Positions 31,531 through 60,676 of a stretch of 64,000 bases of DNA are shown here, one piece after another. A program made the translations under genes and the position numbers. The notes under the pieces are model-generated. The model ran no database searches. It was not told the DNA's origin and saw nothing but the letters and a program-made list of their open reading frames with translations. Within the stretch, counting starts at the first letter, position 1, and every line of letters starts with the position of its first letter. This DNA comes from Nitrospirota bacterium (GTDB taxonomy: Bacteria; Nitrospirota; Nitrospiria; SBBL01; JAADHI01), in contig JAJDBW010000024.1 in NCBI GenBank assembly GCA_029261155.1, positions 1-64,000 on the forward strand, in the 5' to 3' direction.

Positions 31531-31628
31531 ATCCCCCACTTAGAAAAAGGGGGGCAAGGGGGGATTTAAACGGGTTTGGATTGGGGAAGGCATAAATCCC
31601 CCTCAATCCCCCTTTGTTAAAGGGGGAG
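31531..31628. repeat. G/C-run inverted-repeat element at the addA 3' end
   Basis: Runs of C and G (CCCCCACTTAGAAAAAGGGG, GGGGGGATTTA, TAAATCCCCC, CCCCCTTTGTTAAAGGGGG) form nested inverted repeats over about 100 bases. This resembles small mobile palindromic elements. The right end supplies the last codons of addA (PPPLTKGD and stop). Confidence 0.65.
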
Positions 31629-34600
31629 GTGTTATGACGCTAACACTTTCCCCCAGCCTTAAAAAAATCAACTCCATGGCGGCCACATCTCTTTTCAGCG
31701 CCCGCCGGAGGGCCTCGGGATAGACTATACATTGGTGACGATATTTTTCGGCGGCCTGGGCCAGATCCGCATGGCTCACTCGGTCCGTCTTGTAGTCGCC
31801 GACATAGAGTGCACCCTCGCTTTCGTAGGCGATGTCGATAACGCCCTCCATCACCTGCCCTTCCCAGGGCATGACAAAAGGAATCTCCCGTCCAAGGATC
31901 TTGGCCCCAGAGAGCCTGCGATAAACCGGGGACTTCAAAAAAGTGTCGAAAATTGCGCCCAGCTCCGAGGCCATTTCCTCTCCTGAAAAACCTTCCATCG
32001 GCGGGACCTGTGCCTTTACAAAACCGGTAAGTATTTCGCCCAGGCCTTCGACCGGTTTCGAAAAATCCCAGCCTTCAAGAAAAAGATGGGCAAGCCGCCC
32101 GATCCACTTCCCTCGCTCGGCGGCCTCTCCGCCAAGCCCGCTCGACGGCGCGGGAGCCGCGGCCTTCATCTCTTTCAAAAGCGCCGGCGCATCCATTCTT
32201 TTCAAAACACTGGGGTTGATAAACAAGCGGCGGCCTTCAATGGCCTCGCAACTTTTTTTCCGAAGCGCCCATTGCGCCGCCCAATCCCCCCAATCCACCT
32301 TGGGCGTATTTTTCTTCTCCGCCGCTTTGCGATGCAGATGATTCATGTCGATGCTCAGGTTTTGTATTTCAATGGTGCCTTTGCCCACAGTGAGACTCTC
32401 TGCCGCCGCGTCGGAAAAAGAGTGCCCCGTCCCTTCCGCCAAAAGAGAGAAAAAGCTTCCCCGCCGAAATCGCCCCGCCCCAAAAAAACTCAGATGTTCG
32501 CGTGCCCGCGTCATGGCGACATAGAGCACGCGCTTTTCTTCTTCTATTTCGCGAAGCCGCTCTTTTTCGGCCAAATAAACCGAGGCCAAATCCGAGACTT
32601 CCCCCACCCGCAGGCCGCTTAAGCCGCTGAACCAATCGTGCCGCGCCAAAACGCGGCCTTGCGGCGGATGATCGCTTCCGGCATGGCTGCCCGCCAAAAC
32701 CACGACGGGAAATTCGAGGCCCTTCGCCTTGTGAATGCTAAAGACCTTCACCGCATCCACGCCCGCTTCCGCCAAGGGCGACTCCGCCGCCTCGCGCCCC
32801 TCGGAAACCGCCTGGGCCAAGGCAGCCGCCACTTCGCGAAAGGTCCCCGTGGCCTCCAGGCCTAACAATTCAGCATCGCGCCGGATTTTTTCGAGATTGG
32901 CCAGGGCCTGTTCCCGATGCGTCGCACTGGCGGCAAGCAAGGCGATGCCCGTTTCGTCGAAGATGCGGGTCACCGCTGCGCCCACCGGAAGGCGGAAGGC
33001 CAAAGCGTGCAGGCGATCAAGCATGCCGTAAAGTGCGCGAAGCGTCGGGGCCAGTTCGGCATCGTCCTTCGCCTTTCGATAATGCAAGCGGCCTTCCCGA
33101 TGCAAACGCAGAATGTCGGTATCGGGCAAGCCCCCCACCGGGGAACGCAAGACCCCGACCAAGGCCATCCGATCGTTCGGGTCGGCGACCGCGCAGAGCA
33201 GGTTGACGGCGTCGCGGACCTCCTGGCTGCGGTAAAAGCGCCGCTCGCCCTCCACCACGTAACGGATGCCCCAGCGCCGAAGCGGTTCGAGATAAAAATG
33301 CACGCCGGTTAAGCGCCGCATCAAAATGGCGACATCGCCCCGCCGCACCCTTCGGGCTGCGCCGTCCCGATCATGGATGATGGCCTTGCCGATGACGGTT
33401 TCACTCAACCAACGGGCCAGGGCCTCGCCTTCGGCGCGTCGGGCTTCTTCGGCCTTCATGGGCTCCGCGCCGCTTCCGGTCCGCCTATCCTCACCTAGGG
33501 TATCGACGAAGCGGCAAACCACGGCCCGGAAAAGATTGGGTCCGGCTTCGGCTTCAAGGGTCTCCACTTTTGCGGCCGAGTGGATGCCGATATAGTCCGG
33601 CTGAAGTCCGTCTTTCGGCAGCATCAATTTTCGAAAGATGCCGTTCACCGGTTCGAGGAGGGCGGTGTGGCTTCTAAAATTCGTCGTCAAGCGGCACTCG
33701 ATGCCGCCCTGATCGAGGATCGTCTGACGGATGGCTTGCGTGGCGGCGATGTCCGCGCGGCGGAAGCCATAGATGGATTGCTTCGGATCGCCCACGACAA
33801 AAAGTTTGCCTGGCGCGAGCCGCACCTCCCGCCAGTTTTTTGCAGACCTGTCGGGTCGCTCGGCGGGCCCTTCGGACAGATAGAGGAGGATCTCGTATTG
33901 CACCGGATCGGTGTCTTGAAACTCGTCGATCAAGATCGCCCGGTAGCGGGCCTTCAAGGCCTCGCGGACGCCAGGGCAATCGCGCAAGAGGTTCCGTGCC
34001 CGGACGAGCAGGCCGTCGAAAGACACCCAAGCCTGTTTCGTTTGAATCTTCCGCAGCCGCCGCACAAAGGGGCCAAGGAGCGCCAGCAGGTTTTCGAGCG
34101 CCGCAGCGTCGATGCGGAGCAGGCCCTGGGCGATGCGGATCAAGCCCTTCGCCGCTTCAATGTCTTCGTCCGTCCAGCCCTTGACCTTGGCCGCCTGCTT
34201 TCCCGAGGCGAGCAGGGCGTATCCTGCCGCGTCTTCGCCCGAAGCCGCGTCCCCCACCTCGCCTGAAGCGAGCACGGATTCAAAGACCGCCTTCGCGGCC
34301 GCGATCATCTTTTCGACATTGCGCGACCTGGTACTCGCTCCATTTCCTAGCGTATCGGGATGCCCTTCCAAAAGCAGGTCGGTCGCGGCGATCAGCCCCC
34401 GCAGCCATTGCGCCACCGTCTTCGGCGGTCGCGCTTCATCGATTTGCTTTTTTAAATCGTCGATGTCCACTGTCTCCGAGGCCAGAGCTCCCGCCGTCTC
34501 CCTGAGCTCGCCCAGCGAAAATTGCCGGAGGGCCGCCTGCCAGCGCGTCTTGTTGGGACTCTGCGCCGAAAGTTCCCCCTCGAGCCAAGCCGACCAGCAC

Positions 34601-35085
34601 TCGTCGAAGAGATGTTCTGCGGCCTGCGCTCCCGTATCGACGCGAAACTGCGGGTCCACCCCGGCCTCGATGGGATAGCGCCGCAAGAGGCTGGTCGCGA
34701 AATGATGGAGGGTGCCGATCTCGGCGCGTTCCAATTGTCGGAGTGCGGCCTCCGCGCGCACATCAATGTCCCGCCGCGACAGGGTGTAGCGATCCATGAG
34801 CACCGCCGCCTTCTCCGGCAGGTCCTCCGCGTGCCGCAGAGCCTCTAAAGCCTCGCCAAGCCGGAGCTTCATTTCATTGGCGGCCTTGTTGGTAAAGGTG
34901 AGGGCGACGATCTCGGTAATCGCAAGCGGTTCCGGTTCGCGCATCAAGAGGTGAATCAATCGATCGACGAGCAAGGTCGTTTTGCCCGTGCCCGCCCCGG
35001 CGGTGACGATCACATTCCGGTCAAAGGTGCACACGGCGCATTCTCGCTCGCTTTGATCCTCCGGCGGCTTGAAGGCGGCACTCAC
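31603..35085 (-). CDS. addA: AddA-type helicase-nuclease
   Basis: It processes double-strand DNA ends for recombination together with AddB. UvrD-type helicase motifs are in order: Walker A GAGTGKTT at 30-37, IDEFQDTDPVQ, DPKQSIYGFRRADI, FSIHKAKGLEFPVVVL and LYVAMTRAREHL. The C-terminal nuclease has EGVIDIAY and YVGDYKTD, an intact PD-(D/E)XK site. The GTG at 35085 overlaps the addB stop (GTGA) and has AAAGGAG before it. The ORF track's extension to 35793 is a shadow of addB. The protein has 1160 residues. A DTLGNGAST insert near residue 250 recurs in the MFS gene. Confidence 0.9.
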   Translation of the reverse strand: MSAAFKPPEDQSERECAVCTFDRNVIVTAGAGTGKTTLLVDRLIHLLMREPEPLAITEIVALTFTNKAANEMKLRLGEALEALRHAEDLPEKAAVLMDRYTLSRRDIDVRAEAALRQLERAEIGTLHHFATSLLRRYPIEAGVDPQFRVDTGAQAAEHLFDECWSAWLEGELSAQSPNKTRWQAALRQFSLGELRETAGALASETVDIDDLKKQIDEARPPKTVAQWLRGLIAATDLLLEGHPDTLGNGASTRSRNVEKMIAAAKAVFESVLASGEVGDAASGEDAAGYALLASGKQAAKVKGWTDEDIEAAKGLIRIAQGLLRIDAAALENLLALLGPFVRRLRKIQTKQAWVSFDGLLVRARNLLRDCPGVREALKARYRAILIDEFQDTDPVQYEILLYLSEGPAERPDRSAKNWREVRLAPGKLFVVGDPKQSIYGFRRADIAATQAIRQTILDQGGIECRLTTNFRSHTALLEPVNGIFRKLMLPKDGLQPDYIGIHSAAKVETLEAEAGPNLFRAVVCRFVDTLGEDRRTGSGAEPMKAEEARRAEGEALARWLSETVIGKAIIHDRDGAARRVRRGDVAILMRRLTGVHFYLEPLRRWGIRYVVEGERRFYRSQEVRDAVNLLCAVADPNDRMALVGVLRSPVGGLPDTDILRLHREGRLHYRKAKDDAELAPTLRALYGMLDRLHALAFRLPVGAAVTRIFDETGIALLAASATHREQALANLEKIRRDAELLGLEATGTFREVAAALAQAVSEGREAAESPLAEAGVDAVKVFSIHKAKGLEFPVVVLAGSHAGSDHPPQGRVLARHDWFSGLSGLRVGEVSDLASVYLAEKERLREIEEEKRVLYVAMTRAREHLSFFGAGRFRRGSFFSLLAEGTGHSFSDAAAESLTVGKGTIEIQNLSIDMNHLHRKAAEKKNTPKVDWGDWAAQWALRKKSCEAIEGRRLFINPSVLKRMDAPALLKEMKAAAPAPSSGLGGEAAERGKWIGRLAHLFLEGWDFSKPVEGLGEILTGFVKAQVPPMEGFSGEEMASELGAIFDTFLKSPVYRRLSGAKILGREIPFVMPWEGQVMEGVIDIAYESEGALYVGDYKTDRVSHADLAQAAEKYRHQCIVYPEALRRALKRDVAAMELIFLRLGESVSVITPPPLTKGD
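34330..34356 (-). repeat. 27-base in-gene repeat, copy 2 (addA)
   Basis: This segment encodes DTLGNGAST inside AddA, between helicase motifs, and differs at three of 27 positions from the copy in the MFS gene at 21652-21678. Both copies are read in the same frame. Confidence 0.45.
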
Positions 35086-38000
35086 GAACCCGGCTCCTTT
35101 TTTTTCGAAGGCACATCGCTTTGACGCAGCAGCCGATGACGCGCCCAGAGGGGATCGCGCTCCAAGCGCCGACGCGAAGGCAGGTGCTCTTTGCGGCAAA
35201 GGGCCGCAATCGGACAATATCGGCAGTGCGCACCCGGATCGATAAAAAAGTGTCCCGACGCCATGCCGGAAAGGAGTCCCCCAATCGTCGCCTTCAAGCG
35301 CGCGCCGGTCTCGCCGGCCCAGGCGTCCTGCGGAAATTCGCGCGGCACGAGCGGTCCTTCGGGCCAATTCGGCGCAAGAAAATAAAAGGCCGATTGGAGC
35401 GGGGCGTTTTCTTCGCCGTAGGGCGCGGCGAGTTTTTGATACAAGGGCGGCTGCAAGCGTTCGCCGCGAAGCGCGGCGCGCAGGAGGTTTTTTTCGACCG
35501 ATCCGGCCTGCCTGCGAAAGGTGATCTTGTAATCGATGGCCCGGACGGTCTTCGTCTCCGGATGTACATCGAGGCGGTCTATGCGTCCCGAAAACTCGGG
35601 CCAGTCCGCTTCGATCTTTCCACGGCATTTCAGTTCGAAGGCGGTGGGACGAAAACCGGAGGCCGAGAGTTGTTTTAAATCGATGGCGATGGCCTCTGAT
35701 AAGAAGGCCGCGATCTGCATCTTTATCTCCTCCCAAAACAGCGGATAGGCCACGGGATGCTCCGATTCGAAGCGGACAAAGGCCTCGGCACAAATCCGAT
35801 TAAAATCCCGCATCGGATCGTCGGCGGCATCGCCCTCGAAATAGTCTGCCCGGAACAAGCCCGCATAGAAACGATGCAAGATCTCATGGCAAAGCGTTCC
35901 AATCTCCGAGGCCGGCAATTCGAGACGGTCTTCCGGCCGTTCGACCGGGGCCAGCTTCAGAAGATCGGCGGCAAAATATTGAAAGGGGCAAAGCGCATAA
36001 CGTTCGAGCCCGGTCGGGCTCAAAACGCCATGCCTATCGAAGGCGGCAGTGCTTGGATCGATGAGGCCGTCATGGGCCGTCAGCGCGCCGCCGGATTCCA
36101 GCCGCCGCAAGGCCGCACGGCCCTGCCGGTACAAGGCGGCAGAAAGCGGGAGCGTGTCTAAAACCGGGGCCGGATCGAGGCCGAGAAAAGCGGCCCGCAA
36201 GGCCGCCTCTTCGGGTGGAAGCAGGGCGAAATCTTTAAAGGGCGCACGGGCGTAGCGCTCGCGAAGGCCACGCGGCATCACGTGCGTGAGGGACCCGCTT
36301 TGCCCAGGGGCAAGGCATTGCGCAATCCGCCGCAAGGCCCAGGAGGGGCTGGCGGCGCTGCCTTCGGCATCGACCCGATGTGAGAAAACACGGAGGCGGT
36401 GTTGCGTGCTGTCGACCAATAAGGTCAAGAGCAGGCGTTCTTCGTCGTAGGCGGCCAGGTTTTCCCCGACCTTGTAGCCCAGCACGGTTTCGAGGACGCG
36501 GCGATGGCCGTCCGGCAAAAAGGGATCTTCGCGGATACTCCGGGGAAAGCGGCCCTCGTTCATGCCCAGGATGAAGAGATGGGAAAAGGCCAGGCCGCGT
36601 GCCGCCATTGCACCCATGACTGATACGCCCGCGTTCGCGGGACCGGCCGCAGGGATCGTCTCCCGCGCCATCCAGCGGCTGAAGGTCTCGACGAAGGTTT
36701 CAAGCGGAATGCGCGGGGCAATTCGATCGAGGCCGGAGATCGCTTCGAAGAGCCCGGCCAGCGCGCCCTGCACCCGCGCGTCTTGCGTCAGCGTTTCTTC
36801 GTGTATCCTTTCTTCCTGCTCTTCTTCGGTCGCCGCCGGACCGAGCGCATCCCTTTCGATTGCATCCAGGGTGTGTCCCTCGGGCGGCGAAAAACCCAGA
36901 GTGTGCTGCAGCAAGGCTTGGAAACGCGCGGCGTAGTCCGACCAGGCTGCCTTCGGCGGCAGGGCCTCGAGCTCGGCGGCGAGGGTCGACACACAGTCGA
37001 AAAGCAGGGCCGCTTGGGTCGAGGACGCGTCCCGCGGGTGCCCTAAGGCCTCCCATGCGGAAAGCCCCTTGCTCACACCCGCTTGGCGCGACAAGGTCTC
37101 CCACTCGTCCTTTACAACTTCAGCCCCCTGCACGCAAAAGCGCTCGGCCTGGAAGTCGGGCGAGGCGAGGAGATCGATCATGGGTCCACGGGCATAGTCC
37201 TTAAGCCTGAGGTTCAGTAAAAGGAGGACGCTTTTTGCAAAGGGATATTGGATCAAAGCCTCCTCCCCCTGCGTGGTTATCGGAAGGGCATGGCTTTTAA
37301 AGAGGGCCTTGATGTCGGGCAGGTAGGTTTCGATCTCGCGGGCCACGAGGCCGATGTCCTGAAAGGCCAGGCCTTCGTCCTTCACCAAGCGCAGGATTTC
37401 TTTTGCCGCCGTCGAGACCTCATCCCGCGCATCGTAGCAATCAAAAATTTCGAGAGCCGGTCCAAGATGGGGGTCTTCCGCCTCGCCGTCGTCGAATAGA
37501 TTGTGGCCGCGCGGGCCTTTAGTGCAGAGATCGACCACTTGGGACGCATGGCCCACCAGGCCCTCAACGTGCCGTTCGTAGAAGCGCCTCGCGTAGTCCC
37601 AACCGGAATTCTTAGGCGCGAGAGGAAAAAACAGGGTGGCGTCGTGGTGCCGCGCAACGGACTGAAAGAGATCTACTTGCACTTGCGTGAGATCGTAGAA
37701 ACCGTAATAGAATATCCGACCGAAGGTTTTGAGAAAAATCGATTCCGGTACCAGCGGCGTGGCGATGGCGGCCAAATCGCCATAAGACAGCTGACTTTTT
37801 GCCCGGTCCTCGGTTTCGATACGGCGATGGAGTTCGAAAAGCGGACGCAAGTTTTGGGCGGCACCTTTGCCAAACTGCCCTTCGCTCAGCGCAGCAAGGG
37901 CCAGATCCGGATCGACCAGACCGTCTTTTAAATCGCGCAGACTACGCCACAAAGCGGCAACCCCGCCTTCCGTTTTTTCCACTTGGGACAAAAAGGCATC

Positions 38001-38312
38001 GGCAGACGCATTTTGCCGAAGGACGAGACGCAGACGCTCCTGAAAAAAAAGCCCGCTTTCCGTAGAAAAATCATCTGCTGGATGGCCTTCCACACAAAGG
38101 CGTTTGGAGAGCTGATGAAAGGTGAGTATGGAGATCGCAAGCAGGCTGAAGCCCTGCTCAAGGGCCAAGAGAACCTGAAGACGCCTTCGGATTTGCTCGG
38201 AAGGCACCAAGAGGAGAAGCGGATACAGGGGATCTGCGGCCTTGAGTCGCTGGACCTCCGCGACCAAGGCCTCTTCGAGATGCGGATGAAAGGGACCGAG
38301 AAAAATCTGCAC
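35082..38312 (-). CDS. addB: AddB-type nuclease/Chi-recognition subunit
   Basis: This 1076-residue protein has a degraded helicase fold without a GKT Walker A. A C-terminal RecB-like nuclease carries FSGRIDRLDVH and RAIDYKITF. Four cysteines for an iron-sulphur cluster are likely: one in RYALCPFQYF and three in HCRYCPIAALC. This is the proteobacterial-type AddB. The start is a GTG three bases from the DUF4864 stop, and its own stop overlaps the addA start, so DUF4864-addB-addA is one coupled operon. Confidence 0.88.
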   Translation of the reverse strand: MQIFLGPFHPHLEEALVAEVQRLKAADPLYPLLLLVPSEQIRRRLQVLLALEQGFSLLAISILTFHQLSKRLCVEGHPADDFSTESGLFFQERLRLVLRQNASADAFLSQVEKTEGGVAALWRSLRDLKDGLVDPDLALAALSEGQFGKGAAQNLRPLFELHRRIETEDRAKSQLSYGDLAAIATPLVPESIFLKTFGRIFYYGFYDLTQVQVDLFQSVARHHDATLFFPLAPKNSGWDYARRFYERHVEGLVGHASQVVDLCTKGPRGHNLFDDGEAEDPHLGPALEIFDCYDARDEVSTAAKEILRLVKDEGLAFQDIGLVAREIETYLPDIKALFKSHALPITTQGEEALIQYPFAKSVLLLLNLRLKDYARGPMIDLLASPDFQAERFCVQGAEVVKDEWETLSRQAGVSKGLSAWEALGHPRDASSTQAALLFDCVSTLAAELEALPPKAAWSDYAARFQALLQHTLGFSPPEGHTLDAIERDALGPAATEEEQEERIHEETLTQDARVQGALAGLFEAISGLDRIAPRIPLETFVETFSRWMARETIPAAGPANAGVSVMGAMAARGLAFSHLFILGMNEGRFPRSIREDPFLPDGHRRVLETVLGYKVGENLAAYDEERLLLTLLVDSTQHRLRVFSHRVDAEGSAASPSWALRRIAQCLAPGQSGSLTHVMPRGLRERYARAPFKDFALLPPEEAALRAAFLGLDPAPVLDTLPLSAALYRQGRAALRRLESGGALTAHDGLIDPSTAAFDRHGVLSPTGLERYALCPFQYFAADLLKLAPVERPEDRLELPASEIGTLCHEILHRFYAGLFRADYFEGDAADDPMRDFNRICAEAFVRFESEHPVAYPLFWEEIKMQIAAFLSEAIAIDLKQLSASGFRPTAFELKCRGKIEADWPEFSGRIDRLDVHPETKTVRAIDYKITFRRQAGSVEKNLLRAALRGERLQPPLYQKLAAPYGEENAPLQSAFYFLAPNWPEGPLVPREFPQDAWAGETGARLKATIGGLLSGMASGHFFIDPGAHCRYCPIAALCRKEHLPSRRRLERDPLWARHRLLRQSDVPSKKKEPGS

Positions 38313-49756: not shown

Positions 49757-50491
49757 TTAGTCGAAGATTTCTCCCCCGCTGATTTTTCTCCGTTTTTTCT
49801 CCCGATCGAGCGGGTGATCATAGCCGGGCAAGATGGTCCCATCGACAGAGTAGGGCCCAATACGGTTCCATGTCCCTCGCTCGGCCTGGCTGAGATACTC
49901 CATTTCCAAAATCGCCTTAGGGCTTTTGTAGCCGTATTTATAGGGAATGATCATTCTTAAGGGAAATCCATGCTCGTCACTCAGCGGCGCGGCGTTCATA
50001 CTGTGCACCAGGAGGCTGCGCGTGTGGTGAAGATCATCCAAGGGAAGGTATTCGATGTAGGTATCGGCGCAACGGAAAAGAACGCCAACGGCATCGGGCA
50101 GGGGTCGAACAATCGCATCGAGCGCGGCAAGACGAAAACCCTCCCACTCCGCCTTGGCCGACCAGCATTCAACGCATTTTATACGGGAAACTTGCGTTTG
50201 CCTTGGGAGTTTTTTAAGGACCTCCAGGCTAAAGTTTTGTGGGTTTTCGCAGGCGCCGCTCACTTTCAATCGCCAGGATTCGCCCTCTATTCTTTTAAAC
50301 GATTTATAGTATTGGATGTAGAAATGCTTATACTTCCCCTCGCGAGTTTTCCCGACATACTCCGAACCCCGCCAAAAATTGAAGCCCGCAAGTGCCTTAG
50401 TCGGCCGAAACCAAGAAACACCGAGAGCCGCCAGGGCGATAATAATACGTCGGATAAAACTTCGACGTCCCATTTTATTTAACGGACGCAT
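49757..50491 (-). CDS. MsrP/YedY-like sulfite oxidase-fold molybdoenzyme
   Basis: This Tat-exported protein of 244 residues starts GRRSFIRRIIIALAALGVSW, a twin-arginine signal. The oxidoreductase molybdopterin-binding fold has the molybdenum ligand Cys106 in SRIKCVECWSAKAEW, matching the RMRCVEAWS site of MsrP. GFPLRMIIPYKYGYKSPKAI is a family signature. MsrP repairs periplasmic methionine sulfoxide with electrons from a membrane haem partner (MsrQ). No MsrQ is in the window, so its donor is unknown. It overlaps the SUMF1-domain gene upstream by 13 bases. Confidence 0.85.
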   Translation of the reverse strand: MRPLNKMGRRSFIRRIIIALAALGVSWFRPTKALAGFNFWRGSEYVGKTREGKYKHFYIQYYKSFKRIEGESWRLKVSGACENPQNFSLEVLKKLPRQTQVSRIKCVECWSAKAEWEGFRLAALDAIVRPLPDAVGVLFRCADTYIEYLPLDDLHHTRSLLVHSMNAAPLSDEHGFPLRMIIPYKYGYKSPKAILEMEYLSQAERGTWNRIGPYSVDGTILPGYDHPLDREKKRRKISGGEIFD

Positions 50492-51225
50492 CGAAAGCCC
50501 AGGAAGATATATCGCCGGTCCGCATCCACTTCAATCTGATCGGTGGTCCGACTGTATTCGTAATCCAGGTGCTGGTTCCACACCCCGCCCCGCGCGATTT
50601 TTTTACCCTTTGCCTCATCGGCAGTCCACTCCCAAACGGAAGCGGCCATGTCGCGCACACCAAAGGGTGAAACGTCTTTTTTGTTGAAGCCGACGACGCG
50701 CTTCACCATACCGGAAAAAGGGGGGTGGGGTTTATTTCGGTTCCGCTTTTCACCCCAGGGATAAACCCTGCCATCCGTGCCACGGGCTGCCTTTTCCCAC
50801 TCTGCCGCCGAGGGAAGTCTTTTGCCCAGGGCTTCGCAATAGCCCTGGGCTTCGCGCCAGCGAATGAAACTCACAGGATGTCGTTCTTTTCCCGCAGGAT
50901 AGACATAGGCAGGAAAAACGATTTTGAATTCCGCGTTCGACACTTCAAAGCGGTCAATCGTGTAGCGCTCGAGCACGACGATATTGTGATCACCCGACTC
51001 TGCTTTCTCCCCCATCAAAAAAGGACCTTCAGGGATTTCAATCATCTCTTCCGATATGGGAACAGGCAGCATGTCCGCCAAGGCAGGGCTCAAGTATGGG
51101 AAGTAACATAAGAACAAAGCGAGGGTGATCAAACATAAACCCGCCTTCACAACCGTTCTTTGACATACGGGTGAGAGACTCAAGTGATTATTTTTATATT
51201 TAAATAAAATGGCGTGGGATTGCAT
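50479..51225 (-). CDS. Exported SUMF1-domain protein
   Basis: The protein has 248 residues. A hydrophobic signal segment (AGLCLITLALFLCYFPYLSPALA) precedes a single formylglycine-generating-enzyme-like domain. That domain has IEIPEGPFLMGEK, YTIDRFEVSNAEF, GKRLPSAAEWEKAARG, GVRDMAASVWEWTAD and FLGFRCVR. It sits just ahead of the molybdoenzyme and overlaps it, so the two are made together, recalling the NirV-type accessory proteins beside copper and molybdenum enzymes. The exact role is inferred. Whether it has oxidase activity depends on copper-binding cysteines that I cannot confirm. Confidence 0.82.
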   Translation of the reverse strand: MQSHAILFKYKNNHLSLSPVCQRTVVKAGLCLITLALFLCYFPYLSPALADMLPVPISEEMIEIPEGPFLMGEKAESGDHNIVVLERYTIDRFEVSNAEFKIVFPAYVYPAGKERHPVSFIRWREAQGYCEALGKRLPSAAEWEKAARGTDGRVYPWGEKRNRNKPHPPFSGMVKRVVGFNKKDVSPFGVRDMAASVWEWTADEAKGKKIARGGVWNQHLDYEYSRTTDQIEVDADRRYIFLGFRCVR

Positions 51226-52069: not shown

Positions 52070-52927
52070 TTAGTGGGTTTGCAATTCGACCGCCGGCGTC
52101 TCAAAGTGACGCGGTTCCAAGGGTGTATTGAGGCGATAGTTCAATTGAAGATCGTGAAGGGGAATTTTAACTTGTTTCGAATCGAAGGCGAAGGAAATGG
52201 AAACGGTCTTTTCAGGATTGATACTCACCTCCTGCGCTTGAATCTTCATATGCGGATGCCAAGCGATAACATAGTAAGTTCCGGGCGGTACATCAGAAAT
52301 ACGAAAGCCACCTTCGGCGTCTGTGACGGCAAAGTAGGGATTGCCTACGGCCATGCCCCAGGACTGCATGTAGTCATGCACACCGCACTGCGTTCGGAAA
52401 AGATAGTGGCTTTTTCTAAACTGAATCATTCGCATGACATTCGCCATAGGCGTGGTCGGCTTATTGAACATGGGGAAGGTGTATTCGCCCTTCATGGTGT
52501 AACCTTGAATGTCGTGGGCCACGGGATCCTTACTCGATATGGCAATGGGATGATGATTTCGAACGGGTGTCACAAAGGGTGTAATTTGACAATTTTCAAT
52601 ATCGATACGCGGGGTAAAATCAAAGGGCTTTCCTCGTTTTACGCCCACAATCGCAACGATCGCATTTTGTAAACCGCCGTCTTGGGAAACCTCAAATTCT
52701 TTTAATAAGCGGTTCCCCTTCCCATCCGAAATACGCATGCAATAATCAATATTCGGTGAGAAGATCAGATGAAAAATGCGAGTCGGAGGAGTCGTTCCCT
52801 CCAAAAAAATACGACCAGTCAAGGTGCCGCCGGAGGAGACCGGACCTTCTTCATAAGTCCAGCCCCTTGATTGATTGACGCAGATCGAAAGCACGATCCA
52901 TATGCCAATAAAAACTTTTCTAAACAT
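52070..52927 (-). CDS. Exported cupredoxin / carboxypeptidase-regulatory-like fusion (third copy)
   Basis: This 285-residue exported protein (signal peptide ending near SRG) has three parts. Residues 30-100 are a beta domain with Cys63. Residues 110-195 are cupredoxin-like, with His138 in DPVAHDIQG, Cys181, His184 and Met187 in CGVHDYM. Residues 200-250 form a carboxypeptidase-regulatory-like domain (EGGFRISDVPPGTYYVIAWHP). The C-x2-H-x2-M loop is that of amicyanin, so a type 1 copper site is predicted. It is the most diverged of three paralogues and has a GGAGG ribosome site. The function, probably small-scale electron transfer with the large oxidase, is inferred from order. Confidence 0.72.
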   Translation of the reverse strand: MFRKVFIGIWIVLSICVNQSRGWTYEEGPVSSGGTLTGRIFLEGTTPPTRIFHLIFSPNIDYCMRISDGKGNRLLKEFEVSQDGGLQNAIVAIVGVKRGKPFDFTPRIDIENCQITPFVTPVRNHHPIAISSKDPVAHDIQGYTMKGEYTFPMFNKPTTPMANVMRMIQFRKSHYLFRTQCGVHDYMQSWGMAVGNPYFAVTDAEGGFRISDVPPGTYYVIAWHPHMKIQAQEVSINPEKTVSISFAFDSKQVKIPLHDLQLNYRLNTPLEPRHFETPAVELQTH

Positions 52928-53057
52928 TCAAAGGCCTCCAAAGGTATATATTAAACCATAGCACTTTTCATTGAAAGGGTTTAAAGATCGCGCTTCGATC
53001 GCTTGAAATAAGACATTAGGGGCATGAATCGCTTGGATCACTACACGCCGGTTGAAT

Positions 53058-53993
53058 TCAATCGATAATAATTCGATCTTCGCCCTCGTGAAGTCGGTGA
53101 TCCTCTGGGGTCGCCGGGCTGATTCGAAATTGTTTCTGTGTCTCGTAGGGCGGTCGCCTGACGAGTGCCCCGTCAAATTCGAAATCGAGACGCGTAACCT
53201 GCCCGCTATCCACGGTAATGCTTTTCTCATAGACCTTATAATGCGGATGCCAAATGCTTACGGTATAGTCGCCCGGCAACAAATCCGAAATTTTGTAGCG
53301 ACCATCTTTCGCGGTTTTTGCGTAATAAGGACTGTCTACGACAAAGCCCCAGCTCTGCATAAATTCATGCATCCCGCAGATCATCTGCGAAATGCGCTTG
53401 CCTTCCTGAAAATGAAGTCCCCCGCCCCTCGGTTCATCCGAGATGGGGAGCGGTGTATTCAATATAATATTACCTTTTTCGTTTTGAAAAACCTGTATAT
53501 TGTGAACGATGGGATCCTTGTTGATCATGGAGATGGGCTGGTGATTTTCTAAAATCGCCACATTCGGGTGTTCATGGTGAACGTGTCCATTTTCATCCAC
53601 AAAAAACTGTTCGTTTGCCGCCACATCGGCCGGGTGAAACATGCAATCGACCGCAACGAATTCTCTTTGAATCACCGGGAAGGGTTTGCCCTTCTCTACT
53701 TCCTGAACAAATACGACGGCTTCCCATAAACCACGATCTTTATCTACAATAAATTCATTGAGAAGCACATTGCCTTGACCATCGGATATTTTTTTACAAA
53801 ACGAACCGAAGGGATAGAGCACCAAGGCAAATACCCGAGGTTCCGGGATTGGCCCCCGCAAAGTCACTTTTCCCTCGATCGAACCGCCTCGACTCACATC
53901 CACCTCCTCGTAACTATAAACGAGCGCTGGAAGTGTGAAGAACAGTCCCACCAAAAGAAAAGAGGCGACTCCCTTCAGAAAAAAAGGCTTCAT
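53058..53993 (-). CDS. Exported cupredoxin / carboxypeptidase-regulatory-like fusion (second copy)
   Basis: This close paralogue of the protein encoded at 54210 has 311 residues from the ATG at 53993. That ATG has GGGAGG before it; the ORF-track start at 54044 lacks one and lies in a terminator. After the signal peptide come the first beta domain (RGGSIEGKVTLRG), CMFHPADVA, then DPIVHNIQVF and MICGMHEFM, giving the His, Cys, His, Met type 1 copper set. A C-terminal DGRYKISDLLPGDYTVSIWHP domain follows. It ends FRISPATPEDHRL as its neighbour does. A hairpin separates it from the first copy. Confidence 0.74.
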   Translation of the reverse strand: MKPFFLKGVASFLLVGLFFTLPALVYSYEEVDVSRGGSIEGKVTLRGPIPEPRVFALVLYPFGSFCKKISDGQGNVLLNEFIVDKDRGLWEAVVFVQEVEKGKPFPVIQREFVAVDCMFHPADVAANEQFFVDENGHVHHEHPNVAILENHQPISMINKDPIVHNIQVFQNEKGNIILNTPLPISDEPRGGGLHFQEGKRISQMICGMHEFMQSWGFVVDSPYYAKTAKDGRYKISDLLPGDYTVSIWHPHYKVYEKSITVDSGQVTRLDFEFDGALVRRPPYETQKQFRISPATPEDHRLHEGEDRIIID

Positions 53994-54043
53994 TGAATCG
54001 CCTCCCTTCATCCGAATAGATATAAAGTTCAAGCGAATAAACA

Positions 54044-54079
54044 AGACGGGGCAGGCGTCAAAAGCCTCCTGCCCCGTCT
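54044..54079 (-). terminator. GC-rich hairpin between cupredoxin genes
   Basis: AGACGGGGCAGG and CCTGCCCCGTCT form a 12-base stem around a 12-base loop. On the minus strand TTGTTTATT follows, so it should end or attenuate the message coming from the first cupredoxin gene. Confidence 0.75.
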
Positions 54080-54209
54080 AAAAAAATAATACCGAATTCG
54101 TTTTAGAACCTAAGAATGAATATCGAGATAAGTGACAAGGCCGCTTTAGCCTCATTAAATCATTGTAATTTTTCTTCGTGACGCCTGAACCGAAAGAAGT
54201 CGTTTTGCT

Positions 54210-55178
54210 TTAATCGATGATGAGCCTGTCGTCTCCTTCTTTCAGTTTATGGTCTTCCGGCGTTGCAGGACTAATACGAAATTGTTTTTGTTTTTCGTAC
54301 TCTGGGCGTTTAACCAGATCGGCATTAAACTCGAAATTGACTCGAGTCTCTTTATTGGCTTTGATCGTCACCTCTTTCTCAAAAACCTTAAACTGTGGAT
54401 GCCAAAAAGCAACCGTGTAGGTTCCAGGCAAGAGTCCGTCGATAGTGAAGGTGCCATCTTTTGCCGTCTTTGCGTAATAGGGATTATCGACGACAAATCC
54501 CCAACTTTGCATAAACTCGTGCATGCCGCAAATCATCTGAGAAATTCGTTTCCCTTTTTTATAGTGCAAAACACCGCCTCGGGGTTCGTAGGCGACAGTC
54601 GCGACGCCCGGCTTGGTTTTTTTTGCCGGTGGCAGCGGTGTATTCAAAATAATATTTCCTCTTTCGTTCTGAAAGACCTGAATATTGTGAATGATGGGAT
54701 CCCGGTTCACCATGTTCATCTTCTGGTGATTGTGCAAGATAGAAACATTTGGATGCTCATGTCGCATTTGCCCTTGCTCGTCAACCATGAACATTTCATT
54801 ATCCGCCACATCGGCGGGATGGAACATGCAATCTGTCGCGACAAAATCGGCGACTTGGGGGCGATAAGGCTTTCCCTTTTCTACGGCCTTTACGGCAACA
54901 ACAGCCTCCCAGAGTCCTCTGTCTTTTGATACGATAAATTCCTTCAGACGAACATTCCCCTCGCCATCCGATATCTTCTTACAAAAAGGCCCAAAAGGAT
55001 AGAGCACCAGGGCAAAAACCCTTGCGGAAGGTTTTTCACCCCTTAAGGTGACTTTTCCGGTAATGGCGCCGCCTTCACTCACATCAACCGTTTCGTATGC
55101 CTCAGCCACTGAAAGCAAAAACAAGCCAAGCAGACCGATGAGCAGAAGTCCTAGGCTTAATCTTCTCCGCTTTTTCAT
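54210..55178 (-). CDS. Exported cupredoxin / carboxypeptidase-regulatory-like fusion (first copy)
   Basis: This 322-residue exported protein has a signal peptide ending near VAEA. The first beta domain (27-95) has Cys66. CMFHPADVA (117-125) and HEHPNVSILHNH (140-151) add more Cys and His. The copper site is His164 in DPIIHNIQV and CGMHEFM at 217-223. A carboxypeptidase-regulatory-like domain (240-275, DGTFTIDGLLPGTYTVAFWHP) follows. The loop C-x2-H-x2-M matches amicyanin. It lies 100 bases behind the large multicopper oxidase, separated from it by a terminator, and has an AAGGAGGAA ribosome site. Extra His and Cys residues suggest more than one metal site. Confidence 0.76.
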   Translation of the reverse strand: MKKRRRLSLGLLLIGLLGLFLLSVAEAYETVDVSEGGAITGKVTLRGEKPSARVFALVLYPFGPFCKKISDGEGNVRLKEFIVSKDRGLWEAVVAVKAVEKGKPYRPQVADFVATDCMFHPADVADNEMFMVDEQGQMRHEHPNVSILHNHQKMNMVNRDPIIHNIQVFQNERGNIILNTPLPPAKKTKPGVATVAYEPRGGVLHYKKGKRISQMICGMHEFMQSWGFVVDNPYYAKTAKDGTFTIDGLLPGTYTVAFWHPQFKVFEKEVTIKANKETRVNFEFNADLVKRPEYEKQKQFRISPATPEDHKLKEGDDRLIID

Positions 55179-55209
55179 TGGTTCCTCCTTACTTTACTTC
55201 AGGTGATTC

Positions 55210-55256
55210 AAAAAAAATCGGGGCGAAGGACAAGTTTGCACTCACCCTTGCCCCGA
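55210..55256 (-). terminator. Terminator after the multicopper oxidase gene
   Basis: On the minus strand TCGGGGC-AAGG pairs with CCTT-C-GCCCCGA (one bulged base), followed by eight T residues. It would end most oxidase transcripts and leave the cupredoxin genes to read-through or their own promoter. Confidence 0.82.
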
Positions 55257-55278
55257 CATCTTTAAAATAAAACTTCGC

Positions 55279-58200
55279 TTATTTTTCGAGCATCGATAAG
55301 GGCCCGGGCAATTCATCCAAGCCCGAGAGAACTTCCGGAAGTTCTACTTGAGGAAGTTCAGCTGTTCGGCTCCCGACACTGCCACCCCGGTTCAAGGGCA
55401 GGATACGCTGATCTCCGGCTGGGAGGACTCGGAGATAGCCCCACTGGCCCGCCGCAGTATAGGGTAGCCGGTGATTCTGCCAGACATAGTCTCCCACTAA
55501 ACCGAAAGGACCACCGGCACCTTGCTTGATGTAGACATCCAGGTATTCCCCACCGCCAAACTGGAGACTGCTCAACATATCGGCACCCACCATGTTCGGT
55601 TTAAAGGGCCACTCGTGACCTTCGATGCTGAAAACCTGATTCTGTTCGCTGAATGCACCGAAGACGTGCATGCGAACAGGATCGCCGGCATGCGCCATAA
55701 CCGTCGGGGTGTACAATCCCTTTGCATCGGCGACACAGGGCGTAAACATGGTGGCCAGCTCGCAGCCATTTTCTTCACGATACATCCAGGGCTCGCTCCG
55801 GTAATTCACACCCGCTAGTCCAGCAATCTGCTGGATGTAGGGCATAAAAGACGTCCCGATAATATTGTCTTCATCCTGGAAGAAAAGCGAGGCATCGCGA
55901 TAATCCGAACGTCCGCGATTCTCCGGCATTGTTTGATCGAGAATAACATCGACCATCCAGGCATTCTTTAAGGAGACATCATCACCGGTAATCGGATCGC
56001 GATATTTCGATCCCTTTGGCCCGACGATGATCGCTCCAAAAAGACCATCTCGAACGTTATTAATGAAGTTCCCCCAATCCCAAATCAAAGAGGCAAATTC
56101 GCCATGATGTGGATGGGCATAAAAGGTGTACGTACGGCTTTTACCCGGAGGAACCGTCTGATTGGTCGGATTGTTGCCGACGTTAACACCATGAGAATCG
56201 CGTGGATCAAAGGACATCATATCGGAACTGAAAGATGCATGTCCTTCTTTTAATTGATTCTTGAGATTCACTTTCACACAATCTCCAGAGTTGACGTGCA
56301 GGACCAAGGGGTGTGGCTGATCGCCCGTTGCCACTTTGGCCTTGTCGCCTTCAAGCATGAAGATCTTACCCTCCGGATTTGAAATTTGAAGCTTACGGTC
56401 AAAATCAACCTCTATGACATCCGGGGCATTCGGATTAAACTTTAATGCCCGGTCGGCCGCAATGACATTAAACATTTTTACCGGTGCGTCCGAAGGACAG
56501 ATCGACTTGCTGGACACAGGAATCACGCCTGTCCCATTGCCGGTTCCCGGAAGTTTTTGAAGATCTTTAACTTCCTTATCCAAGACACGGAGAATACCCC
56601 ACGATCCCTCGGAAAGATGCGAGGCGCGACCGTTATAATGAAGGTAATCGCCAGCCATCATCTGCGGTCCACCGGCCTTAAAGACCAAGTCATAACGTTC
56701 CGCAATACCCACGTGATGCGCATTCCTAAAATCGGAGTGTTCCGCATAACGCTCTGTCCGGAAGGCATGGCCTGCCACCTTCCACACATGGCTCTCGTTC
56801 ATCAAGCTGTGGAGCAAGCGAACCGTAATGGTGTCGCCCAGATAGGCACGAACCATGATGGTGCTCGGATCCTGATGCGTTTTGCTTGAGAAGATAAGCG
56901 TCGGGTCCGGATTGATCTTTAAGCGACGCGCAACCGATTCGGCTCGGAAATTAAATCCGCCGCCCGTGGTGTGCGTTCCGCCGTTGAGGTCCGTCGCTGC
57001 AACCAGATCCAAATCATAAGGCATTTGGAAAGAAAGCGTCTGACCCGCATCAATGGCCACCTGTATCGACTGCCCCGGCGGATTACCCTTGGTCACAACC
57101 TGTGCGGTGGTCGGCACGGTATCGTGCGGCATCACCACAATTTCACGGAAGCTTCCGTTGATCCCATAACCGATCGGCTCGGTTGAGCGAATATCGGCGA
57201 CGGTTCCGCTTCGAATGGGTTCACCGGTGGTTGGATCGTGGTAGGTCGAACCCGCGGGCTCGACAATCATTGCACCCACACCGCCGTGCGCCCAAGTTGT
57301 CGCGCCGAAGGCATGGTCATGCCAGAAAACCGCGCCGGTGTCTGCATCAACCCAATAGCGATACCGCACCCATTCAACGGAGGCGATCTCGCCTTTTTTA
57401 TGGTCGTGCTTCAGAGGTTCGGACAGGATCATCGTGTCGCCTTTGATGTCCTTAATCCACCGGACTTCACCCGTATTCACTTGATCCATCCCGATCAAGA
57501 TGTCGGTTCCGACATGGAATTTACTCGCCTCTTCCGGCATCTTGAACTTAATGCGATCAGAACCGGCTTTAGCATCCGCGGTCACGTGCGCGTTCATTGG
57601 AACCGGAAGCCCTTTGTGTTTATCTTTTTTGAATTGTGTAAAGGGCCGAACCGATTGGTCATAGGAAAAACCACTGATTACGCCGTCGGAAGCCTGATTG
57701 TCGAACTGAATGAAATGAATGTGGATATTGATTTTCGACATCTGAAAATTCGTCGTGTCGTTATCCAACCACTCGCTCTTGAGCAAGACATCAACACAGT
57801 CGTAAACGCTGGATCGATAAACCAAGGGGATGGCTTTCGGTCCACCCGGATTCGCTCGAACCTCTTCTTCTTCCTCATGAAGAACGTAAATCAATCCCCC
57901 TTTATCGACCACGGCCTTTTCACTTCCGAGCTTCTTTGAAAGCTCGATCGGCGTTTCGATAAAGTGGATGGTGTATTGTTTACGACCGGCATTCTCCGGG
58001 CAAAGGCTCCAGCGGCCCTGCTCACCCGGACGGGGAGGCTGGGTCGTTTCTTGGCCGGGCACCCCGACGCTTCCGGGATCGGTACCGGGTATGCCGGTGT
58101 TTTTGTCCATATGGATCGGTTCCAACCAGGGTGCCCCGCCATGATGACGTGCGAAAGGCGGACGCTTACCGAAATGCGGTTTAAAGTGAGGCCAAGCCAA

Positions 58201-60240
58201 TTTTCCGGTTCTCGCGTCAAATAATAAGGGCGGACGTTTTCCCGGCATCGGCGATTTGTATTTCGGCCAAGGAAATTTACCCGTGGCTTCTTTTTCGCCC
58301 ATCGCCTTATTGCCATCCCACACCCAGTCAAATACGGTTGCATCATAGGCCGCAATCTGACCTTTTTCATCGGATGTGTGACCGGGTTCACCGGCTGGGG
58401 GCAGCATCATCTTGACCCAATCTTTAATGGAAACATCGGGAATTGGTTTTGACCAATCGCTGCTGGCCTTGGTCACATTCCATTTTTTGTCAAACCAGTC
58501 CATCGTTTTTCCGACCAGTTTGTCGGAGGTGACAGCCGGTTTGATGCGCCCTTTTCTATCGGGTAATTCTTGAAGCGGCGGCATCACATCGGTGCTCATC
58601 ATGGGATAGTCCCCGCCTTGAAGCGTATTGTATACCCGCCAGTATCCCCACATACCTGCAACATAGTGGTGGGCCACATGGCAGTGGAAAAGAAAATCTC
58701 CGGCCAGTTGTTGGCAAAGCCCCGATCCGCACTCGGTCTGAAGATCCAGTACCTCGGAGGGCCCAATCACCTGCACATCGACACGGTCGGAAGTGGTTCG
58801 AATTTCAGGGAACTTTACTGGACCGTTCTCTGCTGCAGTTAACAAAAATTCTGCTTTTCCGTCGGCTTTGGGCTGACGGAGCCAGCGAATGGTGCCACCG
58901 TGCGGATGGTGGGAGTGGAAAACTTCTCCGCCACCATGGACAAGGCGGTACTTTGCTGGATCACCCATGTAGGATCGTGGAATCGTCGTGGGCGGATCGC
59001 CAAAGGTGTAGGCGCTGTACCCCTGCGACTCGTCTTCAAAGTGAAAATATTTTTCCTGAACGGCCAGGTTATTCACGCCGAAAGGCTCGCTCCGGAAGTT
59101 CAGCGCACGCGCCGAAGGCCGATAGGCATCGGTATTCGGATCGCGCTGAGGAATCATCTCGCCAAAACGGTTCAAAGGACGGAAGGACTCATCACCAATC
59201 TCGTGATAAATCAGAACGAACTCTCGGAAATCCCGAGAAGAGGGATGTAGAGACTTGTCGCTGGCAATCATCATCTGCCAACCGCTCTTTCCATCTTTGC
59301 CGGTAAGTGGATCGATATAAGTTGAACCCATGGGTTCAACCACGAAAGTGCCGATCATCCCCAAGCTGGCTTGTTCACGGCCCACATGACTGTGAAATGT
59401 ATGGGCGCCTTCTTGCTCGTCAGGAAGGATATACCACTCGTAAACCTGGCTGGCGTCTTGATCGATAATCGTCGAATCGGGATTGGAGATAACCGCCGCC
59501 TTACCCGTTGATTTAATAATGGTGCTCGAACCGTGAATGTGGAGGCTGACTTCTTCACCATCCAGCTTGTTGTGTAGTGTGATATTGACGCAATCGCCCT
59601 GATTCGCACGGATCACTAGAGGTTGAATCTTATCGCCCTGAAGTCCGTTGGAAACCGCGCCGGGATCGTAACCTTCCTTTTCGCGGGCTTCAGCATTAAT
59701 GCGTTCTTCTTCTCGAACGGCTTCGAGATCTTGCGTGAGTACGTACATGTAGCCCGGATGAAAATCCAACCACTGGTTCAAGGTAATTTCGACATTGATT
59801 GCAGCGATGTCGAAATTCTTCATTGGCGCGCCTTTCGGACAATGTCCGCCGCCGCTGACGGTTTCAGAAGCCCCGCTCGGTCCGAGAAAGAAGCTGCGAT
59901 CCATCTGCTGCATCGCGCCCATTTCTCCGAAAGCACCGGGGTCACCGCCGCTTCGTTCCGATAGTTTCTGGGTGCCCACCATAATATCGTCCATTAAGGT
60001 CTTCATGGCGGCGTTAACTTGTTCGTCGCGTCCGGCACGGCCCTCGGCCTGTTCTTCTCTCTTAATTTGGGCGTTGAACTTTTCCTTCCAATTCTCTGCA
60101 TCGGCGGAAGCAAGCATTTGTGAATCGGAATGGCCCGAATGCTCATGATCTGACTCTCCTGCCATGACCTTTCCATGCACAGAGAAAACCAGCATGAACG
60201 CGAAGAACAACTTTAAGGCATTTCCTCCAGTAACATTCAT
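55279..60240 (-). CDS. Giant six-domain multicopper oxidase
   Basis: The 1653-residue exported protein has a signal peptide ending near KVMA. Six cupredoxin-like domains are visible. Domain 1 has HIHG 234-237 and HSH 283-285. Domain 2 has HSHHPH 442-447 and HCHVAHHYVAGM 519-530, the complete HCHx3Hx4M type 1 set. Domain 3 has HIH 840-842 and HDH 974-976. Domains 4 to 6 keep the fold (GHAFRTE, GSWGILRV, GHEWPF, GQWGYLRV) but have lost most copper ligands. A 200-residue linker (about 545-745) separates domains 2 and 3. Typical oxidases have 450-650 residues, so this is a fused triplication like ceruloplasmin or MnxG. The substrate is unknown; metal or phenol oxidation with oxygen is inferred. 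Confidence 0.85.
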   Translation of the reverse strand: MNVTGGNALKLFFAFMLVFSVHGKVMAGESDHEHSGHSDSQMLASADAENWKEKFNAQIKREEQAEGRAGRDEQVNAAMKTLMDDIMVGTQKLSERSGGDPGAFGEMGAMQQMDRSFFLGPSGASETVSGGGHCPKGAPMKNFDIAAINVEITLNQWLDFHPGYMYVLTQDLEAVREEERINAEAREKEGYDPGAVSNGLQGDKIQPLVIRANQGDCVNITLHNKLDGEEVSLHIHGSSTIIKSTGKAAVISNPDSTIIDQDASQVYEWYILPDEQEGAHTFHSHVGREQASLGMIGTFVVEPMGSTYIDPLTGKDGKSGWQMMIASDKSLHPSSRDFREFVLIYHEIGDESFRPLNRFGEMIPQRDPNTDAYRPSARALNFRSEPFGVNNLAVQEKYFHFEDESQGYSAYTFGDPPTTIPRSYMGDPAKYRLVHGGGEVFHSHHPHGGTIRWLRQPKADGKAEFLLTAAENGPVKFPEIRTTSDRVDVQVIGPSEVLDLQTECGSGLCQQLAGDFLFHCHVAHHYVAGMWGYWRVYNTLQGGDYPMMSTDVMPPLQELPDRKGRIKPAVTSDKLVGKTMDWFDKKWNVTKASSDWSKPIPDVSIKDWVKMMLPPAGEPGHTSDEKGQIAAYDATVFDWVWDGNKAMGEKEATGKFPWPKYKSPMPGKRPPLLFDARTGKLAWPHFKPHFGKRPPFARHHGGAPWLEPIHMDKNTGIPGTDPGSVGVPGQETTQPPRPGEQGRWSLCPENAGRKQYTIHFIETPIELSKKLGSEKAVVDKGGLIYVLHEEEEEVRANPGGPKAIPLVYRSSVYDCVDVLLKSEWLDNDTTNFQMSKINIHIHFIQFDNQASDGVISGFSYDQSVRPFTQFKKDKHKGLPVPMNAHVTADAKAGSDRIKFKMPEEASKFHVGTDILIGMDQVNTGEVRWIKDIKGDTMILSEPLKHDHKKGEIASVEWVRYRYWVDADTGAVFWHDHAFGATTWAHGGVGAMIVEPAGSTYHDPTTGEPIRSGTVADIRSTEPIGYGINGSFREIVVMPHDTVPTTAQVVTKGNPPGQSIQVAIDAGQTLSFQMPYDLDLVAATDLNGGTHTTGGGFNFRAESVARRLKINPDPTLIFSSKTHQDPSTIMVRAYLGDTITVRLLHSLMNESHVWKVAGHAFRTERYAEHSDFRNAHHVGIAERYDLVFKAGGPQMMAGDYLHYNGRASHLSEGSWGILRVLDKEVKDLQKLPGTGNGTGVIPVSSKSICPSDAPVKMFNVIAADRALKFNPNAPDVIEVDFDRKLQISNPEGKIFMLEGDKAKVATGDQPHPLVLHVNSGDCVKVNLKNQLKEGHASFSSDMMSFDPRDSHGVNVGNNPTNQTVPPGKSRTYTFYAHPHHGEFASLIWDWGNFINNVRDGLFGAIIVGPKGSKYRDPITGDDVSLKNAWMVDVILDQTMPENRGRSDYRDASLFFQDEDNIIGTSFMPYIQQIAGLAGVNYRSEPWMYREENGCELATMFTPCVADAKGLYTPTVMAHAGDPVRMHVFGAFSEQNQVFSIEGHEWPFKPNMVGADMLSSLQFGGGEYLDVYIKQGAGGPFGLVGDYVWQNHRLPYTAAGQWGYLRVLPAGDQRILPLNRGGSVGSRTAELPQVELPEVLSGLDELPGPLSMLEK

Positions 60241-60434
60241 TATATTCTCCTTCTCATCTTCATTATTTATGGGGGTTTCGGTCTTAATTAAAATAACTCG
60301 GTTGCCTTGAATGTAAAAATAGATTCCGTATCGACTTTTTGATTGCGATGCTCAAAACAAAATATCGACAACATAAGTTCACTCGTACGAATTTTACGCA
60401 AATCTAACCGCGAAAAACATGAGAAATTTTGGCA
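60241..60434 (-). other. Long 5' leader of the multicopper oxidase gene
   Basis: About 190 bases separate the promoter from the ATG, which has an AGAAGGAG site. The leader is AT-rich and could hold a regulatory structure, but I recognise no named riboswitch. Confidence 0.4.
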
Positions 60435-60463
60435 AAAATAGCACTTACAAAATAAAGTGTCAA
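60435..60463 (-). promoter_or_regulatory. Strong promoter of the multicopper oxidase gene
   Basis: On the minus strand TTGACA (60463-60458), a 17-base spacer and TATTTT (60440-60435) form a near-consensus sigma-70 promoter. The rest of the gap up to 60676 shows nothing I can name. Confidence 0.7.
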
Positions 60464-60676
60464 GAACTTTATTGCGAGCTTAATCCTTTTCATTCTTGTT
60501 TATATCGATTCGAGCGACCATTCGCATAACATAGCGGCAAATAATAGATGCTGACCCTAAGCCTGTCTATTGGAATTTGTCAGGAACTCGCCAAATTTAT
60601 AAAGGACAAGCTGTGAATTATGGGTCGGCGTATTCTTATTTTTTGGATATGCTGTATTCAAATATAGAAATATGAT

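Follow-up and report, generated by a model that had tools for sequence, protein, structure and literature searches.

How a giant exported multicopper oxidase (MCO) exchanges electrons outside the cytoplasm is the question raised by a group of four genes in a genome of the Nitrospirota (GTDB lineage Nitrospirota; Nitrospiria; SBBL01; JAADHI01). The genes lie at positions 52070-60240 of the window, by which we mean the whole stretch of DNA analysed, i.e., the first 64,000 nucleotides of contig JAJDBW010000024.1 (GCA_029261155.1, an assembly of 3.56 Mb in 90 contigs with 95.6% completeness). They encode an MCO of 1653 residues and three smaller exported paralogues, here called partners F1, F2 and F3. 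We consider it probable that oxidase and partners form a conserved periplasmic copper-oxidase module of the Nitrospiria, present also in the Nitrospinota, in which an MCO of the MnxG type is accompanied by dedicated small type-1 copper redox proteins.

Organization of the gene cluster

All four reading frames reported in the initial annotation were confirmed, on the minus strand: the MCO (55279-60240; a six-domain protein of MnxG type as judged by reading frame, Pfam and similarity to MnxG), F1 (54210-55178; 322 residues with signal peptide, cupredoxin and CarboxypepD_reg-like domain), F2 (53058-54044; 328 residues counted from TTG, an ATG at 53993 being the likelier start than the TTG that opens the frame) and F3 (52070-52927; 285 residues). 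The frames are co-directional and separated by gaps of about 100-170 bases, in which no terminator-like sites were found on the coding strand, and each of the four opens with a signal-peptide-like stretch, judged by eye. F1 and F2 are 70% identical and appear as close paralogues in the tree; F3 falls into an older paralogue clade common to Manganitrophus. A second MCO copy, 73% identical to the first, is encoded elsewhere in the same genome with two F genes of its own.

Linkage of the oxidase and its partners

Whole-genome searches recovered the oxidase in 77/77 Nitrospiria and in 0/120 other Nitrospirota; copies occur in nearly every member of the class, with up to seven per genome, and the F family is likewise present in 77/77 Nitrospiria. 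The initial annotation had suggested searching genomes for both families together. The count started from 86 oxidase copies, all from loci of named genomes (Nitrospirota and Nitrospinota). Of these, 70 have at least 1.5 kb of downstream sequence, and 58 of the 70 are followed by an F gene on the same strand at a distance of 3 kb or less; in 52 the distance is at most 500 bp. The F family is the commonest neighbour of the oxidase (64 loci), 97 of 99 F neighbours being on the same strand. We call an F gene linked when it lies no more than 6 kb downstream of an oxidase. In a set of 12 genomes, complete or nearly so, this applies to 33 of the 41 core F genes (those with E below 1e-100) and to 44 of the 69 F genes overall, whereas chance would account for 0.13 of the 69. 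Since the pairing is also present in Nitrospinota, a link conserved across the class Nitrospiria and in a second phylum is strongly supported. Distant relatives of F were found on rhizobial plasmids, and F genes remote from the oxidase stand beside an apparent Hyf/group-4-type membrane complex at loci L151-L153 and L155 (N. defluvii and other Nitrospira).

The nearest named oxidases come from Candidatus Manganitrophus GAC4 (79%) and from other Nitrospirota genomes, including OFTM211, OFTM244 (same genus as source) and a Candidatus Troglogloeales genome. By these kinships the source organism is probably a member of the order Troglogloeales and related to Manganitrophus. The oxidase copies of Manganitrophus GAC4 are 77-79% identical to the MCO of the window, and two of them adjoin partner genes; Nitrospira defluvii and relatives of Nitrospina have oxidases about 58-59% identical to it. 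In a genome of the same genus, the oxidase frame (G001:C39:32875-37791) is interrupted by one internal TAA, which is a genuine lesion or else arose in the assembly. An oxidase with 58% identity is also present on contig L100, which is labelled Candidatus Poseidoniales archaeon and is possibly a mis-binned contig of Nitrospinota or Nitrospirota.

That no system with exactly these parts had been described, as first proposed, does not hold for the oxidase, for which three earlier accounts are relevant. Bacterial six-domain MCOs were surveyed in 2013 (PMC3600357). In the relevant sections of Luecker and others (PMC3578206), a periplasmic multicopper protein, highly conserved between Nitrospina and N. 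defluvii and resembling the manganese oxidase of Bacillus SG-1, is placed in the NXR gene cluster; by this description the MCO of Nitrospina gracilis and N. defluvii belongs to the same protein family, and those sections describe the oxidase and not the F partner family. Yu and others (2022; PMC9040806) reported, in the part of their paper that treats these genes, 'two novel MCOs' in every Manganitrophaceae genome, which are very probably the oxidases considered here, and that part names no partner protein. The oxidase family is therefore already known, whereas its conserved pairing with F partners seems to be unreported: a literature search among open-licence full texts found no combination of such an MCO with an F-type partner.

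Copper ligands and family of the oxidase

The MCO matches Pfam Cu-oxidase_3 and Cu-oxidase_2, and its closest solved relative is MnxG (PDB 9bxa), with a phmmer E of 3.6e-80 over four stretches and an E of 2.6e-117 in a profile search. On the MnxG equivalog of NCBIfam (NF041487) it scores 133.5 bits, below the curated cut-off of 3100 bits, and it also stays below the NCBIfam cut-offs for CueO, CopA, laccase and ascorbase (18.8-27 versus 479-615 bits). Twelve ligand positions (H442, H445, H447, H519, C520, H521, H525, M530, H840, H842, H974 and H976) are invariant in 83/83 oxidases. On the minus strand they fall into four motifs: HSHHPH (HxxHxH; residues 442-447, 58900-58917), with the predicted type 1 ligand His442 and the trinuclear-centre ligands His445 and His447; HCHVAHHYVAGM (HCHx3Hx4M; residues 519-530, 58651-58686), with Cys520, His525 and Met530 assigned to the type 1 site and His519 and His521 to the trinuclear centre; and HIH (residues 840-842, 57715-57723) and HDH (residues 974-976, 57313-57321), putative trinuclear-centre ligands of domain 3 that both have counterparts in MnxG 9bxa.

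Domain 2 carries the HxxHxH and HCHx3Hx4M motifs and domain 3 the two HxH motifs, an order also seen in MnxG, and a trinuclear centre between domains 2 and 3 was assigned to every bacterial six-domain MCO analysed in the 2013 study (PMC3600357). As read from the alignment, the invariant residues are a complete set of type 1 and trinuclear ligands, and the protein is by homology a member of the MnxG-type six-domain MCOs, with a predicted type 1 site in domain 2 and a predicted trinuclear site between domains 2 and 3. Two further HxH motifs (234/236 and 283/285) vary across the 83 sequences and were excluded from the core site because they are not conserved in the family. A copper site made up entirely from the N-terminal 550 residues, which would have drawn on these two motifs, was considered and dropped.

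The partner proteins

Each paralogue had been proposed to join a His...C-x2-H-x2-M copper site to a carboxypeptidase-regulatory-like domain, and both elements were recovered in all three. CarboxypepD_reg (PF13620) is matched by F1, F2 and F3 with 39.3, 40.7 and 34.1 bits (cut-off 32.3). The Cys-loop reads CGMHEFM in F1 (C217-x2-H220-x2-M223, 54510-54530, minus strand), CGMHEFM in F2 (53358-53378) and CGVHDYM in F3 (52367-52387), and the upstream His stands in the motif DPxxH(N/D)IQ (His164 of F1, 54687-54689, minus strand). Across 51 aligned F members, His164, Cys217, His220 and Met223 never vary, nor do Cys66 and Cys117; a chance origin of the copper motif can be set aside because of this invariance of the four ligands. 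The first ligand His is somewhat less certain than the other three, because an alignment based on a hidden Markov model recovered it in 57/73 F sequences; the difference reflects the alignment of the loop and the different sequence set.

An AlphaFold2 model of F1 was confident (pLDDT 87, pTM 0.83). Foldseek matched it to the purple cupredoxin of Nitrosopumilus and to amicyanin (5fc9, 1sf3) with a probability of 1.00 and an E of only about 5e-3, and, over 53 columns, to a rhamnogalacturonan lyase domain; the C-terminal part matches the same domain by sequence. No MnxE or MnxF chain was among the PDB matches of F1, the presence of such chains in the searched library being unconfirmed. The type 1 copper reading of the small proteins put forward in the initial annotation is thus supported by the invariant ligands together with the modelled fold, and we infer that the F proteins are cupredoxins which would be loaded with copper. 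They share the C-x2-H-x2-M loop and the cupredoxin fold with amicyanin and plastocyanin-like cupredoxins. Amicyanin, however, is a single cupredoxin domain of about 105 residues with methylamine dehydrogenase as its partner, whereas the F proteins are MCO-linked, have about 260-300 residues when mature, and add a transthyretin/CarboxypepD-like domain and the two invariant Cys (66 and 117).

In the intact F proteins the CarboxypepD_reg match spans profile positions 29-80 only, with the first strand missing. A GGxIxGxV stretch near the N-terminus is a candidate for this strand; if it supplied it, the cupredoxin would be an insert, and the CarboxypepD_reg-like domain may therefore be split, with the cupredoxin inside it. 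Testing the split arrangement gave about +4 bits over the control and full profile coverage in two of the F proteins, and no such gain in the third.

Neighbourhoods in other genomes

In N. defluvii the cluster has the order oxidase, F, F, a 201-residue protein, a 473-residue protein (at the place where other loci have the HEAT-repeat protein) and a third F. Co-directional genes follow for a cytochrome bd-like oxidase, two FGE-like proteins and c-type cytochromes, among which one has a heme domain resembling that of ethylbenzene dehydrogenase. This is probably the cluster described in PMC3578206. A confinement of the module to NXR clusters was also considered and found unsupported, no NXR-type protein being among the annotated recurrent neighbour families. 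Sigma-54 activators recur upstream of the oxidases (28 loci), and an FGE-like neighbour lies downstream in 17/79 oxidase loci. At the second oxidase copy of the source genome, the oxidase is directly preceded by a Crp/FNR-like regulator (L048:5347-6063) that has a Cys cluster at its N-terminus, and a PAS/sigma-54 activator lies upstream of this regulator.

Other features of the window

The region upstream of the MCO (60241-60676, minus strand) contains promoter-like sites, identified as matches to the consensus, of which TTGACA-17-TATTTT at 60463-60435 is the best. Beyond F3, an exported protein resembling FGE/sulfatase-modifying factor by family match is encoded at 50479-51225 (minus strand) as a possible associated gene; the usual C-terminal active-site Cys pair is absent by eye, and the protein, exported and recurrent near these oxidases, may have another role. 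It overlaps a gene for an MsrP/SUOX-like molybdopterin protein with a Tat-like signal (49757-50491). Further away, 27144-28502 encodes a helix-turn-helix protein whose C-terminal part is a predicted pPIWI-associating nuclease domain, possibly a defence gene, and 31603-38312 a pair of a UvrD-type helicase and a PD-(D/E)XK nuclease, likely an AddAB-like recombination system.

Discussion

A module of an MnxG-type oxidase and type-1 copper partners would work as follows. The type 1 copper in domain 2 of the MCO would accept one electron at a time and pass it through the His-Cys-His bridge to the trinuclear copper centre shared by domains 2 and 3; there, O2 would be reduced to water. Each F protein would bind a single type-1-like copper and would shuttle electrons either to the MCO or away from it; alternatively, the F proteins might be docked copper-containing accessory subunits, in the manner of MnxE and MnxF with MnxG. 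The initial annotation had likewise cast the small proteins as electron carriers for the oxidase: the link behind this idea was found throughout the class and in a second phylum, and the carrier role is kept here as a proposal. As substrate, we consider a phenol less plausible than a respiratory donor or a metal ion, be it Mn(II), Fe(II) or Cu(I). In N. defluvii, the continuation of the cluster into genes for c-type cytochromes and a cytochrome bd-like oxidase speaks for a periplasmic redox module.

Known MCO systems offer partial parallels. MnxG of Bacillus sp. PL-12 (9bxa) is likewise a six-domain MCO whose ligands, in the same permuted order, come from domains 2 and 3, and genes for copper-binding accessory proteins adjoin it as the F genes adjoin the MCO; these neighbours, MnxE and MnxF, are needed by MnxG (PMC5622069). 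The two oxidases are, however, distant and differ in size (1653 versus 1227 residues), and MnxE and MnxF, of about 12 kDa, have no similarity to characterised proteins (PMC5622069), whereas the F proteins are predicted type-1 cupredoxins with a CarboxypepD_reg-like domain. MofA of Leptothrix and OmpB of Geobacter are also large exported MCOs encoded beside putative redox partners, MofC-type cytochromes; as far as the relevant sections of that account go, the partners reported are cytochromes, a PPIase or an SCO1-type chaperone, and no fusion of cupredoxin and CarboxypepD_reg (PMC5566968).

Several observations weigh against a dedicated module. Modelling of the copper sites, proposed at the outset, went well for F1, with its cupredoxin matches, but AlphaFold2 performed poorly on residues 130-1225 of the oxidase (pLDDT 58); because of this poor model, the geometry of the domain 2/3 copper site rests on sequence and homology. 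In the 12 genomes, 9 of 33 oxidase copies are without an F gene within 6 kb. That the F family might occur mostly apart from such oxidases had been named as a refuting observation; this is not so for the core members, most of which are linked, and partly so for divergent ones, since 21/120 other Nitrospirota genomes contain F genes and 0/120 the oxidase. Unlinked F genes adjoin a Hyf-like membrane complex in several Nitrospira (by eye), which suggests a second use of the same copper protein. Distances between oxidases and between their first partners are correlated (Mantel r 0.79, 0/999 permutations), and we do not take this as proof because shared ancestry explains it.

The occurrence of F members without an oxidase and beside the Hyf-like complex could also mean that the F proteins are general periplasmic copper redox proteins serving several enzymes, their adjacency to the oxidase being historical rather than a sign of a dedicated partnership. 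We think this very unlikely, as the linkage is far above chance and kept across two phyla and among oxidase paralogues, and each of the two oxidase copies of the source genome has its own partners. MCOs such as CueO serve in copper homeostasis, and the oxidase might accordingly detoxify metals in the periplasm by oxidizing cuprous or ferrous ions, with the F proteins as copper carriers or stores that load it. Here, the conserved Cys and Met of F would bind Cu(I) too, and a Streptomyces relative of the MCO (33% identity) adjoins a CopC gene; but a full type-1 set of His, Cys, His and Met in a cupredoxin fold is typical of electron transfer and not of storage, a near-universal oxidase with up to seven copies per genome and respiratory neighbours in N. 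defluvii fits simple detoxification poorly, and the annotated recurrent neighbour families include no copper pump or copper regulator. Copper homeostasis is thus an unlikely main function.

Oxidative stress offers a third explanation. In its relevant sections, PMC3578206 proposed in 2013 that the Nitrospina/Nitrospira homologue makes Mn(III), which destroys superoxide, citing the absence of superoxide dismutase and catalase, the similarity to MnxG and the absence of the gene from the anaerobic Kuenenia; the F proteins would then be accessory. The distribution of the oxidase within the Nitrospirota (77/77 Nitrospiria versus 0/120 others) agrees with such a defence, as does the MsrP-like gene close by in the window. 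Manganese oxidation, however, was shown for no member of the nitrite-oxidizing families studied (PMC11995701), and the proposal leaves dedicated type-1 copper partners unexplained; we therefore regard it as quite unlikely.

A dedicated module of oxidase and copper partners thus remains our preferred reading, and it allows a bolder extension. According to the part of PMC9040806 concerned with lithotrophy, such MCOs would need a periplasmic electron carrier to serve it. The F proteins might be this carrier, taking electrons from the type 1 copper of the MCO to the respiratory chain, in which case the MCO would be an energy-conserving Mn(II)/Fe(II) dehydrogenase in Manganitrophus relatives, and nitrite- and manganese-oxidizing bacteria would have a copper-based respiratory branch in common; we put this forward as speculation that is rather improbable at present. 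Nearly all Nitrospiria carry the oxidase, and it is found in Nitrospinota as well; major nitrite oxidizers and the manganese lithotroph Manganitrophus are among the members of these lineages. The pairing with F proteins may show how the giant oxidase exchanges electrons. A dedicated copper-protein partner would provide a concrete protein pair that bears on whether these electrons are merely burnt on O2 or used for energy conservation.

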